DNA from: an uncultured Actinomycetes bacterium
GTDB taxonomy: Bacteria; Actinomycetota; Actinomycetes; Nanopelagicales; Nanopelagicaceae
NCBI GenBank assembly: GCA_903893085.1
Contig: CAITKS010000134.1
Span: forward strand, 1-19,365
Length of the DNA stretch: 19,365 bases
Reading direction: 5' to 3'
The position numbers and the translations under genes are program-made. The notes beneath the pieces were generated by a model. The model worked only from the letters and a program-made list of their open reading frames with translations, was not told where the DNA came from and did no database searches. This document shows, one piece after another, positions 4,723 through 11,848 of the stretch (positions are counted from its first letter, which is position 1; each line of letters starts with the position of its first letter).

Positions 4723-5657
4723 GTAGCTTTGATTTCTCAACAACTCTAGGAAACGCATTTTTCAACACTCCAATCTTTACCGCTAGTGGATGTGCAAGTT
4801 CAGGAAAAGAATTAGCTCAATTCTTCCCGTTAAAGGAGATTGGTGCCGTAGTAACAAAGTCGGTTATGAATAAACCTAGATACGGTCGACCAACTCCACG
4901 TATGGCAGAGACTCCATCAGGAATGTTGAACTCGATAGGTCTGCAAGGACCAGGAATTGAAGCTTTTCTTGCCAATGACATTCCATGGCTTGTCGAGCAA
5001 AATTCCAGAGTCATAATTTCCATAGCCGGGGAGACAGTCGAAGAATATGCAACGCTGGCACGTAAGGTGCGATCAGTTGCAGGAATAAGTGCGATAGAAG
5101 TAAATATTTCATGTCCCAATGTGGAAAATCGTGGTTTGGTTTTTGCCTGCGATCCAGATGCGTCTCGGCGCGTAATCGATGGAGTGCGAAAGACAATCGG
5201 GGGAGAGATTCCGATTATCGCCAAACTTTCCCCGGATGTAACGAATTTGCCAGCTATAGCGCAAGGTGTTGTCGAAGCAGGAGCAGATGCTCTGGCGTTG
5301 ATTAATACCGTTCTAGGAATGGTAATTAATATCGAAACGATGCGTCCGCATCTTGGCGGCAAAACAGGTGGCCTATCAGGACCTGCGATCAAGCCCGTTG
5401 CAGTCCGCGCGATCTATCAGGTCCATGCAGCACTTCCTGAAGTTCCGATACTCGGAATGGGTGGGGTCTCATCCGGCCGCGATGCCTTTGAACTAATTTT
5501 GGCTGGGGCATCTGGTGTGAGTGTTGGTACCGCAAGTTTCGGAAATCCACATGCTGTTATTGATATTCAAAATGAACTTCGAGAATTATTGATTGCTAAA
5601 GGTTTCCCTTCACTCAAAGCAGCGATTGGATACGCGCATAGAGAGGTGGATGTATGA
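4719..5657 (+). CDS. pyrD: Dihydroorotate dehydrogenase, class 1B catalytic subunit
   Basis: This is the FMN enzyme that oxidises dihydroorotate to orotate, the fourth step of UMP synthesis. The 312-residue TIM-barrel protein is the size of class 1 soluble enzymes and lacks the N-terminal membrane helix of class 2. The class 1 catalytic cysteine is in NISCPNVENRG (Cys132), where class 2 enzymes have serine. Other family blocks are TKSVMNKPRYGRPTPR (46-61), LNSIGLQGPG (70-79), the lysine in IIAKLSPDV and the FMN phosphate region ILGMGGVSSGRDA. Its neighbour pyrK confirms the 1B (NAD+-linked) type. It overlaps pyrK by 4 bases and pyrF by 4 bases. From memory, mycobacteria and Streptomyces use the class 2 enzyme, so this form is notable for an actinobacterium. 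Confidence 0.96.
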   Translation: MSSFDFSTTLGNAFFNTPIFTASGCASSGKELAQFFPLKEIGAVVTKSVMNKPRYGRPTPRMAETPSGMLNSIGLQGPGIEAFLANDIPWLVEQNSRVIISIAGETVEEYATLARKVRSVAGISAIEVNISCPNVENRGLVFACDPDASRRVIDGVRKTIGGEIPIIAKLSPDVTNLPAIAQGVVEAGADALALINTVLGMVINIETMRPHLGGKTGGLSGPAIKPVAVRAIYQVHAALPEVPILGMGGVSSGRDAFELILAGASGVSVGTASFGNPHAVIDIQNELRELLIAKGFPSLKAAIGYAHREVDV

Positions 5658-6364
5658 AAGCACCGATAATTTTGGCAGTGGATACATCAGATTTTGACAC
5701 TGCAATTTCGTGGATTGAAGCAACAAAGGAAAGTGTCAGTGTTTATAAACTTGGGCTTGAGTTTTACTTAAATTTTGGTGCCGCAGGGGTGGCCAATGTT
5801 GTCTCACGCACGGGCGCGGAGATATTCCTGGACCTGAAGCTGCATGACATCCCGCATACTGTCGCTGGTGCAGCAAAAGCTATTTCTCATTTACAACCAA
5901 GGTTCTTAACGGTCCATGCAAGTGGCGGTTCTGCCATGGTTAAGGCTGCAGCAGATGCGGTACCAAATGTTTCAATCACTGCGGTCACAATTCTCACCTC
6001 AATCTCTGAAGGTGATCTTTTTGAAATTGGTTACGCTAGCCCAGCACTTGAGAGCGCCGTCGCGTTAGCAAAACTTGCAGTTAACGCTGGAGCGAAAGCC
6101 ATTGTTTGTTCCCCGCTTGAAACCGCGGCGATTCGAAGCGCTTTGGGTGATAAACCAATAATCATTACCCCCGGAGTGAGACCGCTGACTGAAATGGGCG
6201 CAGATGATCAAGTTCGAACAATGACTCCAGCGGATGCAATCGCCGCAGGTGCAAATTTCGTAGTTATTGGTAGACCGATCACAAGAGCATGGACAGATGG
6301 AGCAGCAGCAATGACGGCGAAAGCGCGTTTGATCGCCGATGAGATTCTTTCGGCAATTGCGTAG
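5654..6364 (+). CDS. pyrF: Orotidine 5'-phosphate decarboxylase, short (type 1) form
   Basis: PyrF decarboxylates OMP to UMP, the last step of the pathway encoded by this operon. The 236 residues match the short form found in E. coli and Bacillus. The catalytic charged network D-x-K-x-x-D is in DLKLHDIPHTV (Asp60, Lys62, Asp65). The N-terminal ILAVDTSD, Lys32 and the phosphate-binding TPGVRP and VIGRPITRA blocks are also present. The start is in an ATGA overlap with pyrD. The stop TAG lies inside a TAGAGT hexamer that may be the -10 element of the next gene. Mycobacterial PyrF belongs, as I recall, to the longer type 2 branch. Confidence 0.96.
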   Translation: MKAPIILAVDTSDFDTAISWIEATKESVSVYKLGLEFYLNFGAAGVANVVSRTGAEIFLDLKLHDIPHTVAGAAKAISHLQPRFLTVHASGGSAMVKAAADAVPNVSITAVTILTSISEGDLFEIGYASPALESAVALAKLAVNAGAKAIVCSPLETAAIRSALGDKPIIITPGVRPLTEMGADDQVRTMTPADAIAAGANFVVIGRPITRAWTDGAAAMTAKARLIADEILSAIA

Positions 6365-6373: not shown

Positions 6374-7252
6374 GTGCCAACTCCTCCAAAGTTAACACCT
6401 GAGCAACGCAGGGACGCTTTAGCAAAGTCCACCGCCGCTAGGCAGGTACGCGCTTCGACAAAAGCGCGCGTCAAAGCAGGGGAGTTAACTCTCGCGGCAA
6501 TATTCGAATTAGCTGCAAACGATGAAGCCATAGCCAAGATGCGTGTGGTTGAACTCCTAGAATCATTTGCTGGTGTTGGAAAAGTTCGAGCGATTGCAAC
6601 TTTAGATCGTTTAGCAATTTCCCAAACCAGACGTATCCAAGGTCTTGGTTCAGCGCAACGCGCAAACTTGCTTCTTGAATTTCCAAGCCGTACCGCCGCC
6701 GTGCAACGCGGAAAATTGATAGTTCTTTCCGGTCCGGGTGGCGTTGGAAAGAGTACCGTTGCAAAAGCGCTACGAGAGACTCAGTCATTCTGGGTAAGTA
6801 TTTCTGCTACGACTCGAGTTGCAAGGCACAATGAAACTGATGGTGTGGATTATTACTTTTATTCGGAAAATGAATTTGATAACGCGATTAAATCCGCACT
6901 CTTTTTAGAGTGGGCTGAATTTGCGGGTTCCAGATACGGAACGCCCCGCAAACCAGTTGAAGATGCACTCCGAGACGGCCGAAATGTGTTGCTAGAAATA
7001 GAAATAGCGGGAGCTCGGCAAGTTAAAGAGAGAGCACCGGAAGCGGTCCTAGTATTTTTGCAGCCACCTTCGTGGGAAGAATTAGTCTCTCGCCTAGAAG
7101 GTCGCGGTACAGATTCGCCCGAACGGCGGGCGGCGAGATTGGAATTAGCCCAAGATGAACTTGCTCAATCCAGCTTTTTCGACTTGAACGTAGTAAATGA
7201 GCGCGTCGAAGAGGTTGTAGAACGCCTGATAGGATTGACCACACATCAGTAG
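6374..7252 (+). CDS. gmk: Fused mycobacterial-type integration host factor and guanylate kinase
   Basis: One uninterrupted 292-residue frame holds two normally separate proteins. Residues 1-103 match actinobacterial mIHF, a basic nucleoid DNA-binding protein: [13 protein letters not shown], the basic stretch around residues 23-35, GELTLAAIF, then the helix-turn segment [13 protein letters not shown] (61-73), RRIQGLG and [11 protein letters not shown] linker of about nine residues follows. Residues 113-289 are guanylate kinase (ATP + GMP to ADP + GDP): Walker [10 protein letters not shown] (120-128), the GMP-binding SATTR and R-x-x-E-x-DGVDYYF (144-162), [12 protein letters not shown], and [10 protein letters not shown] with RGTDS. 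No kinase motif is missing. The GTG start follows pyrF by 9 nt and is the only start that includes the whole mIHF domain. A GTG at 6701 (residue 110) could allow a free kinase but has no obvious ribosome site. In mycobacteria mihF and gmk are adjacent genes, so this looks like loss of the intergenic stop. Confidence 0.93.
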
Positions 7253-7290: not shown

Positions 7291-7539
7291 ATGGACGGCA
7301 TTACTAATCCACCAATCGACGAACTTCTCGATAAGAGTGGTTCTAAATACAGCTTGGTTCTCTATGCAGCAAAGCGTGCCCGTCAGATAAATGCTTATTA
7401 CTCACAACTTGGTGAAGGACTTCTTGAATATGTTGGTCCGTTGGTTGAGACACACGTTCACGAGAAGCCACTTTCAATTGCACTTCGTGAGATCAACGAA
7501 GGTTTACTTACAATCGAAAATCTCGAACCAACCGCTTAA
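7291..7539 (+). CDS. rpoZ: RNA polymerase omega subunit
   Basis: Omega is the small RNA polymerase subunit that helps assembly of beta prime. The 82-residue protein begins with the actinobacterial signature [20 protein letters not shown], followed by the conserved helix [18 protein letters not shown] (27-44). It ends with [16 protein letters not shown], the conserved C-terminal segment. The length is usual for the family. It lies 38 nt after gmk, the same gene order as in Mycobacterium. The consensus AGGAGG suggests efficient initiation. The gap of 21 nt to coaBC contains no hairpin followed by a T-run, so co-transcription is likely. Confidence 0.97.
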
Positions 7540-9967: not shown

Positions 9968-11848
9968 GTGTCATCTGCGCGGCCACTTCGTCTAAAGACC
10001 GAAGAAGTTTCTAGAGTAGATAAAGAGATAGCAACTTCTTTACCCGTAGCGCGTCTTTGGGTGGATAATTCGTTGTCACATCTGGATGGCAGTTATGACT
10101 ATTTGGTTCCCAAGCGTCTAGATGCACAAGTTAAAGCTGGGGTACGCGTTGGTGTTGATTTCGCTGGACGCGAAGTTGAAGCACTTGTTATAGATCGAAT
10201 TGATGCCCCATCGCACGCGGGACTTAAAACAATTGCATCGGTCTTATCACCGATTGTTGTCGCACCACCGCAATTGATCTCGTTGATAACTCAGGCTTCG
10301 CAAAGGTGGTTGGCTCACCCATATGATTTAATCAGAAGCGCGATTCCACCAAGCGTTGCCAGTGTGGATAAGAGCCTTTCCACTGAAACGGTTGCGTACT
10401 CATCTCGAGTGAAGAAAATCCACGAAGCTGCATATATCCATATACAACCTCATGAAAATGCGATAGTTAAGTTAGTTGATTTTGCCAACGGAAAGTTGTC
10501 GCTCGGTTCGGTACTTCTCATCGTGCCTGAGGAACGAGAACTTGCGCGCCTCCTTGAAATTTATGGTGATAGTGCAATTGTTCTCTCCGGATCTTTGACA
10601 AGGACAGATCGATATCGAAACTATCTATCGGCTGTCGGTGGTTCGAAAAAGTTGATCATCGGCACAAGAAGTGCAATTTTTGCATCTCCGAACGATTTGC
10701 AAACCATCATTGTCTTTCGCGAAATTTCCGAATCTCTATATGAACCCAGAAGCCCTGGATGGAATGTTAGAGACTTAGCGCTTATGCGAAGTGAGAGAGA
10801 AAGTCTCGATTTGTATTTTGCCGGCTATTCGCCATCGAGTGAGATTGCTAGTCAAATAGAAGAGGGTAAGTGCAGATATATTGGTAAAAGAAATCGCTTG
10901 AAAGTGACCAACAATCCATCGGCAAATGGTGAATTACTTCCTGGACGGATATTCGCATCAATAAGAACTGGACTGAAAACTGGACCGGTTCTTTTTCTCG
11001 TGCCTCGTAAAGGGTATGCCAGCTCACTCATGTGCAAAAAATGCAGAAATATTTCACTCTGCGAATGCGGGGGTAAGTTATCTAAATCATCGGCAACGGC
11101 TCCCGCACATTGCGTCCATTGTGGTTTGAAATCTACCTTGGATAAATGCAAGTGGTGTGGAAGCGATTCTAGGATCTTGCTAGGCCGTGGTGCAGATCGT
11201 CACGCCGAGGAAATTGGACGCGCTTTTCCTGGCTATCCTGTTTTTTATTCGAGCAGCGATAAGCCAGTTGAAGAAGTAGCAAACGAGTCGAGTTTGGTTA
11301 TCTCCACAACTGGAATGGTTCCCCGAACAAAGAATGGTTATGCCGCTGTCATATTGCTAGAAGGTGATTCATTCTTTTCATATGCTGACCTAAGAGCGCA
11401 GGAACGCGCCCGCGAGTCATTCTTTGAGGCAGCATCCCATGTCTCGATTAAAGGGGAGATAGTTACTGTGATTGATTCAACGCACCCAATTACTTCCGCG
11501 CTAACTCTTTGGAGCCCGTCCACTATGGCGGGACGGGAATTATTGGAACGTAAAGAGGTTTCTTTGCCACCGTATACGCGAGCAGTTGTTTTAGAGACGG
11601 ACACAAAGGATGCGACCGGAATCATCTCTGGAATACGTAAGGCGGTGTTCGATAAAAGATTACCAAGTTCTGTTGTTGCTCTTGGACCTTCTCAACGTTC
11701 AGGAGATCTTTCGCGAATTCTCTTGACTTGCGATATATCCCAGAGCGATGAATTCCTAAAATTTTTGCATGAATTTATCCGCCATCGTGCAATCGCCAAG
11801 AAAAGCAAGATTTTTCTCCGAGTAGATCCTTACTCTCTTTCATCCTAA
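9968..11848 (+). CDS. priA: PriA-like primosomal protein N', helicase motifs degenerate
   Basis: PriA normally recognises stalled forks and restarts replication as a helicase. Here 626 residues keep the PriA fold but not the motor. The N-terminal DNA-binding region (about 25-125) begins ARLWVDNSLSHLDGSYDYLVP. In the helicase part, no Walker A GxGKT/S motif is present, and the DEEH box region reads VFREISESLYEPRSPGW. The zinc module is intact with eight cysteines (356, 359, 365, 367, 382, 385, 394, 397). The late motif region is GYAAVILLEGDSFFSYADLRAQERA, and the C-terminal domain follows. Loss of ATPase motifs is typical of actinobacterial PriA as I know it, so this is probably a structural primosome or fork-binding protein. 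The GTG start has AGGGGA upstream. The sequence is more divergent than its neighbours. Confidence 0.88.
   Translation: MSSARPLRLKTEEVSRVDKEIATSLPVARLWVDNSLSHLDGSYDYLVPKRLDAQVKAGVRVGVDFAGREVEALVIDRIDAPSHAGLKTIASVLSPIVVAPPQLISLITQASQRWLAHPYDLIRSAIPPSVASVDKSLSTETVAYSSRVKKIHEAAYIHIQPHENAIVKLVDFANGKLSLGSVLLIVPEERELARLLEIYGDSAIVLSGSLTRTDRYRNYLSAVGGSKKLIIGTRSAIFASPNDLQTIIVFREISESLYEPRSPGWNVRDLALMRSERESLDLYFAGYSPSSEIASQIEEGKCRYIGKRNRLKVTNNPSANGELLPGRIFASIRTGLKTGPVLFLVPRKGYASSLMCKKCRNISLCECGGKLSKSSATAPAHCVHCGLKSTLDKCKWCGSDSRILLGRGADRHAEEIGRAFPGYPVFYSSSDKPVEEVANESSLVISTTGMVPRTKNGYAAVILLEGDSFFSYADLRAQERARESFFEAASHVSIKGEIVTVIDSTHPITSALTLWSPSTMAGRELLERKEVSLPPYTRAVVLETDTKDATGIISGIRKAVFDKRLPSSVVALGPSQRSGDLSRILLTCDISQSDEFLKFLHEFIRHRAIAKKSKIFLRVDPYSLSS

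Follow-up and report, generated by a model that had tools for sequence, protein, structure and literature searches.

The window analyzed here, a 19,365-nucleotide stretch of contig CAITKS010000134.1 from an uncultured actinomycete of the Nanopelagicaceae, carries a GTG-started open frame (6374–7252, forward strand) of 292 codons plus a stop, which encodes a single uninterrupted chain. A sequence-only reading of this DNA had proposed that the frame fuses mIHF, the actinobacterial integration host factor (IHF), to guanylate kinase through a linker of about nine residues. The frame, Pfam and NCBIfam all agree with this description. The features at the locus are as follows.

6374..7252, forward strand: mIHF-guanylate kinase fusion gene; 292 codons plus stop, GTG start; full-length relatives exist
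6374..6682, forward strand: actinobacterial IHF (mIHF/sIHF) domain; residues 1–103
6629..6634, forward strand: codons of the conserved basic pair R86 R87; from the alignment of the fused groups
6683..6709, forward strand: linker; residues 104–112, about nine residues, from the profile domain limits
6701..6703, forward strand: in-frame GTG (V110) within the linker; candidate internal kinase start, unsupported
6710..7240, forward strand: guanylate kinase domain; residues 113–289
6731..6757, forward strand: P-loop GPGGVGKST; residues 120–128, from the sequence
5654..6364, forward strand: pyrF, upstream neighbor; Pfam OMPdecase
7291..7539, forward strand: rpoZ (RNA polymerase omega), downstream neighbor; Pfam RNA_pol_Rpb6

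Architecture and reality of the fused protein

Pfam places H2TH_5 at residues 33–103 of the chain and Guanylate_kin at residues 113–285. The NCBIfam profile actino_IHF (NF041260) covers residues 5–103 with 111.5 bits (curated cut-off, 60), and guanyl_kin (TIGR03263) covers residues 113–287 with 211.3 bits (curated equivalog cut-off, 160.45). In the predicted structure, the kinase half adopts the guanylate kinase fold, and the N-terminal half adopts the S13-like H2TH fold of DNA-bound sIHF. In the Foldseek comparison the first 50 matches were taken up by kinases, and the IHF half surfaced on a second look; the kinase half is 47% identical to the Mycobacterium guanylate kinase structures 1znw and 1s4q. 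Residues 101–110 have a mean predicted local distance difference test (pLDDT) score of 67, the lowest of any block except the final two residues. The two domains would be joined like beads on a string: a complete IHF domain, then a complete guanylate kinase.

Is the single frame real? Full-length proteins that are 99–100% identical occur on several contigs from different sources, the longest of 109 kb (one of them is perhaps the record of the window itself). Full-length, single-frame relatives at 80–81% identity are encoded on two complete chromosomes, those of Candidatus Planktophila lacus and Actinobacteria bacterium IMCC26103. Those relatives at about 90% identity that carry names are Candidatus Planktophila records, which makes membership of the acI group (order Nanopelagicales) very likely for the window. 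Because the same frame recurs in several contigs and in complete chromosomes, chance or assembly error is excluded as its source, and an artefact of assembly or sequencing, refuted by these same-frame relatives, strikes us as vanishingly improbable. The sequence-only reading had named an assembly error, with a stop or frameshift in the reads at the junction, as something that would refute the fusion; the several contigs and complete chromosomes contradict such an error.

Elsewhere in the window, a 626-residue frame follows metK (9968–11848); we take its product to resemble the actinobacterial-type primosomal protein PriA.

Distribution and origins of the fusion

The sequence-only reading had proposed to search proteomes for proteins with both domains. 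Such proteins are common in databases, and fused rows fall in four clusters on the trees. Both Pfam domains are present in 120 of the 120 best database matches and in 117/120 of another best-match set, and the named entries for fused proteins are mostly “guanylate kinase.” Among these are proteins of about 300 residues from the Microbacteriaceae (Curtobacterium, Leucobacter, Leifsonia, Salinibacterium), which also combine these two Pfam domains in a single chain but differ from the window's protein in their separate clade and junction sequence.

Forty-one loci were collected by likeness, with groups assigned from record titles and the tree. They comprised 23 fused relatives of the window's group, four fused Microbacteriaceae (Microterricola, Agromyces, Glaciibacter, Leifsonia), eight separate-gene loci (Trebonia, Propionibacterium and six Acidimicrobiales) and six kinase-only Bacteroidota. 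Four records titled Bifidobacterium breve and Streptomyces griseus (L010, L011, L014, L020) nest with the window's freshwater relatives; their titles look wrong.

Genome draws gave counts. From the order of Planktophila lacus, 201 genomes were drawn: 165 had a full-length fusion, two had fusions cut by a contig end, 28 had two separate genes, five had no match, and one had a kinase with no mIHF match in the available stretch. Separate genes in relatives had been named beforehand as a finding that would speak against the fusion; they do occur, in those 28 genomes, and they indicate ancestry, not error. One genome (G070) has both a fusion cut by a contig end (L076) and a second kinase half that opens another contig (L102), which could reflect a mixed bin or a second copy.

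In the Microbacteriaceae (the family of Microterricola pindariensis; 100 genomes drawn, 98 matched), 90 genomes carry full-length fusions. Of these, 86 are stop-free in the match; the other four have a stop in the match (L155, L224–L226) and are fused on inspection. Seven further genomes of 1.1–2.1 Mb (L216–L222) carry the kinase at the locus but no mIHF half there; assessed without a tree, they look as if the mIHF half was lost after fusion. In the remaining one (L223, genome G565), overlapping mIHF and kinase halves lie in different frames, either because the frame has genuinely changed or through an error in sequencing. Genome streamlining had been offered as a cause of the fusion. It is not supported as the cause, and as the only cause it is rejected: of the 90 fused genomes of the Microbacteriaceae family, 77 are at least 2.4 Mb in size.

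A class-wide draw of 394 genomes contained at least 57 fused by eye (36 from the window's order and 21 others). In a phylum-wide draw (396 genomes, 377 matched), at least eight rows span both halves stop-free, a count that includes the P. lacus genome and G924, which has undetermined junction bases; many further rows cover the two halves but contain one stop, and so represent separate genes that share a frame. The apparent fusion L196 from this draw, with undetermined bases at its junction, was excluded from the counts. Another row, L197, is a fused mIHF-kinase from a 1.7 Mb genome with 38% identity to the window; it lies outside the trees and is perhaps a fifth origin.

To place the fusions, a locus tree was built from the pyrF, gmk, rpoZ and coaBC columns, with mIHF excluded. 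It has 166 rows from 196 sequences, after removal of duplicates and of 10 sequences without a usable mIHF-kinase pair. Fused rows fall in four places: the window's clade (79 rows), a second clade of its order (4), the Microbacteriaceae (19) and another actinobacterial lineage (2). In the second clade of the order, the two domain matches are separated by a stretch that differs from the window's and runs to about 23 residues. Four separate-gene genomes found later group with the separate rows, and none falls within the main fused clade. Further comparisons used a quick IQ-TREE tree of 68 rows (28 of the 79 main-clade rows). Holding all of the order's fused rows as one clade was 28.5 log units worse, and a single origin within the window's order is thus weakly rejected (approximately unbiased [AU] test, p 0.024). 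The minimum number of state changes on this tree is five; one gain followed by losses may be the true history, as counts of changes cannot separate it from repeated gain. On these trees, the fusion probably arose twice in the window's order, again in the Microbacteriaceae and in at least one other actinobacterial lineage; the Microbacteriaceae fusion is probably independent because it forms a separate clade and has a different junction sequence.

No description of an mIHF-guanylate kinase fusion was found in the literature searched, with most subscription papers outside that search. As far as the available parts of the papers go, literature on integration host factor together with guanylate kinase held no fusion report, nor did literature on guanylate kinase, nucleoid-associated and fused, hold one of an mIHF fusion. 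The terms “guanylate” and “gmk” are absent from the main texts of PMC3724605, PMC10028186 and PMC4255298 in a term search. The earlier suggestion that the architecture is undescribed thus stands for the literature searched and fails for the databases: the architecture is widespread there, not new, and is undescribed in print as far as our search reaches.

Separate-gene relatives and the state of the two halves

What did the fusion start from? The sequence-only reading described mycobacterial mihF and gmk as adjacent but separate genes, and one report bears this out for M. tuberculosis: there, mihF is a separate gene, followed by gmk and rpoZ, and in an mihF deletion gmk and rpoZ had to be supplied, given polar effects (PMC6155035). 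The Mycobacterium proteins mIHF (Rv1388) and guanylate kinase (Rv1389) match the window in their two domains, gene order and rpoZ neighbor, but are encoded by two genes rather than one. Streptomyces sIHF (SCO1480; 4itq, 6bek), unlike the window's protein, is a free 107-residue protein with no kinase.

The 28 separate rows of the window's order are more varied. In 19 of them, mihF and gmk never share a frame, and for 12 of these 19 the closest gmk start codon is one that overlaps with the stop of mihF. Five others include one pair in one frame. In the last four (L212–L215), mihF and gmk share a frame and are parted by one stop, which a start codon follows immediately. Given such overlapping or touching arrangements, one substitution or a small shift would join mihF and gmk, and the one-frame, one-stop arrangement would be the step expected ahead of fusion. 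The 12 overlaps and L212–L215 back the sequence-only proposal that neighboring genes had fused. At the L213–L215 junction the ATG of gmk comes right after the single stop, an extant arrangement not far from fusion. The motif TANNNT precedes the separate gmk start in seven of the 19 rows (L080, L082, L091, L093–L096) vs. 2.1 in shuffles, and in none of the rows of the other separate groups (0/5 and 0/38); it is perhaps a candidate promoter for gmk alone in the order's separate rows.

Neighboring gene pairs at these loci, which were picked by likeness to the fused protein, were also compared. mihF and gmk are in one frame in 104 of 166 loci. At loci where both members could be observed, the pairs pyrF-mihF (129 loci), gmk-rpoZ (161) and rpoZ-coaBC (155) never are. 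This hints that the mihF-gmk fusion is tolerated or favored beyond fusion of the neighboring pairs.

The kinase half retains what we take to be its nucleotide-binding motifs. In 82 fused proteins, residues G120, P121, V124, G125 and K126 of the P-loop are invariant, as are S144, T146, T147, R148 and R151 of the S-x-TTR-xx-R stretch. Family searches of 25 fused genomes (16 from the order, nine Microbacteriaceae) found one guanylate kinase over the cut-off in each, within the fused frame; no second one reached the cut-off in any of the 25, with weak matches below it in G014 and G021. Because it is the sole such enzyme over the cut-off in all 25 genomes, the kinase half is very likely active, converting GMP to GDP. 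Animal MAGUK proteins likewise join a guanylate-kinase-like domain to other domains. Those kinase-like domains are inactive scaffolds that have lost the P-loop and catalysis, unlike the window's domain, whose P-loop is intact.

The same 25 genomes each have one mIHF over the cut-off, within the fused frame, and one HU-type protein; no second, free mIHF over the cut-off was found in them. The window carries the family's conserved basic residues R23, R26, K30, R86 and R87. R23, R26, K30, G69, G92 and Q95 are invariant across the fused groups, R23, R26, G69, G92 and Q95 are identical in 166 of 166 rows, and position 87 is R or K. Judged by its sequence, the IHF half most likely still binds DNA.

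Interpretation and alternatives

We favor the reading, at a probability of about 0.72, that the frame yields one two-domain protein with both halves working on a flexible linker. The IHF domain would carry the GMP kinase onto the nucleoid, with both halves functional and their two activities fixed at 1:1. The fusion would have come about when the stop was lost between two operon genes that overlapped or almost touched. A link to RNA polymerase or an altered oligomeric state, both raised in the sequence-only reading, may add to this.

Several observations weigh against this reading or parts of it. The main fused clade is open in the quick tree, where separate rows fall between the two parts of the clade; holding that clade together is not rejected (AU p 0.646; likelihood 2.9 above the free quick tree). 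An in-frame ATG lies at the junction in 33 of 79 main-clade rows vs. 18.1 expected, although the rows are related and the excess does not amount to 33 events. With in-frame start codons at the junction, the gene could give two products, the full chain and a free kinase begun at GTG 6701 or TTG 6716, the window's junction having these two and no ATG. We regard this as quite unlikely: GTG 6701 is absent from L001–L004, the TTG at the 6716 position is common to only 18 of 79 rows (the window included), and the 14 bases preceding each of the two codons lack a Shine-Dalgarno-like core. Moreover, none of the 19 Microbacteriaceae rows has a junction ATG (3.7 expected), and the ATG of the main clade is possibly a relic of the old gmk start, though it could still be used. 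A further concern is that in both large fused groups the mIHF half evolves faster than the kinase half (rate ratios 1.66 and 1.74), as it does in the small fused clade of the order (2.13, four rows), vs. 0.90 in the mixed group of separate genes and 0.78 in a five-row separate-gene group of the order; these ratios are rough, the distances being partly saturated. R86 is replaced by K in all 19 Microbacteriaceae rows (R elsewhere), K70 is mostly replaced there, and seven of the 98 matched Microbacteriaceae-family genomes have no mIHF half at the locus and so can dispense with it there. Might the mIHF half then be decaying, or be re-used as a solubility or oligomer tag, with its DNA binding gone? 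This seems unlikely, given that basic and glycine positions stay invariant throughout the fused groups and that none of the 25 genomes has a second mIHF gene over the cut-off. Separate-gene relatives in the order also evolve nearly as fast (1.54 in the other order rows), and fusion alone is therefore not the cause of the faster mIHF half.

The strongest competitor concerns benefit, not architecture, and is compatible with two working halves: operon genes occasionally lose a stop, and the fusion may be a tolerated by-product that confers no advantage. It would be kept because both halves work and because reversal needs a new stop and a new start together. We give it an even chance. In the order's separate rows, mihF-gmk is the tightest pair (median of 5 bases from stop to domain match, vs. 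20 for pyrF-mihF, 36 for rpoZ-coaBC and 57 for gmk-rpoZ), besides the 12 overlaps among 19 rows, and the pair's one-frame excess may therefore partly reflect how easily it fuses. In the mixed separate group the medians are 35 for mihF-gmk, 77 for pyrF-mihF, 39 for rpoZ-coaBC and 77 for gmk-rpoZ. One-frame, one-stop loci exist (L212–L215 and many other rows), which makes the mutational path short, and the seven genomes lacking the mIHF half also fit a by-product. Against it stand the repeated clusters, the near fixation in two large groups and the other close pairs, which are unfused in all loci examined. That tethering brings a selected benefit, as opposed to mere tolerance, has about one chance in three.

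If the favored two-domain reading is correct, the fusion couples a global DNA-binding protein with an essential reaction in the making of guanine nucleotides, and does so in most of the Microbacteriaceae-family genomes sampled as well as in the window's freshwater group, which is very numerous. It also bears on annotation: since proteins labeled “guanylate kinase” can hold the sole mIHF, such genomes may appear to lack mIHF. A bolder proposal, which we consider rather doubtful, is that several actinobacterial lineages independently evolved a nucleoid-anchored GMP kinase that would supply GDP/GTP along the chromosome, beside transcription, and would link guanine nucleotide supply to the state of the nucleoid, perhaps via (p)ppGpp control of the kinase. 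Finally, that this one pair has fused repeatedly is a hint that mIHF and guanylate kinase may already work close together in actinobacteria whose mihF and gmk are separate neighbors.
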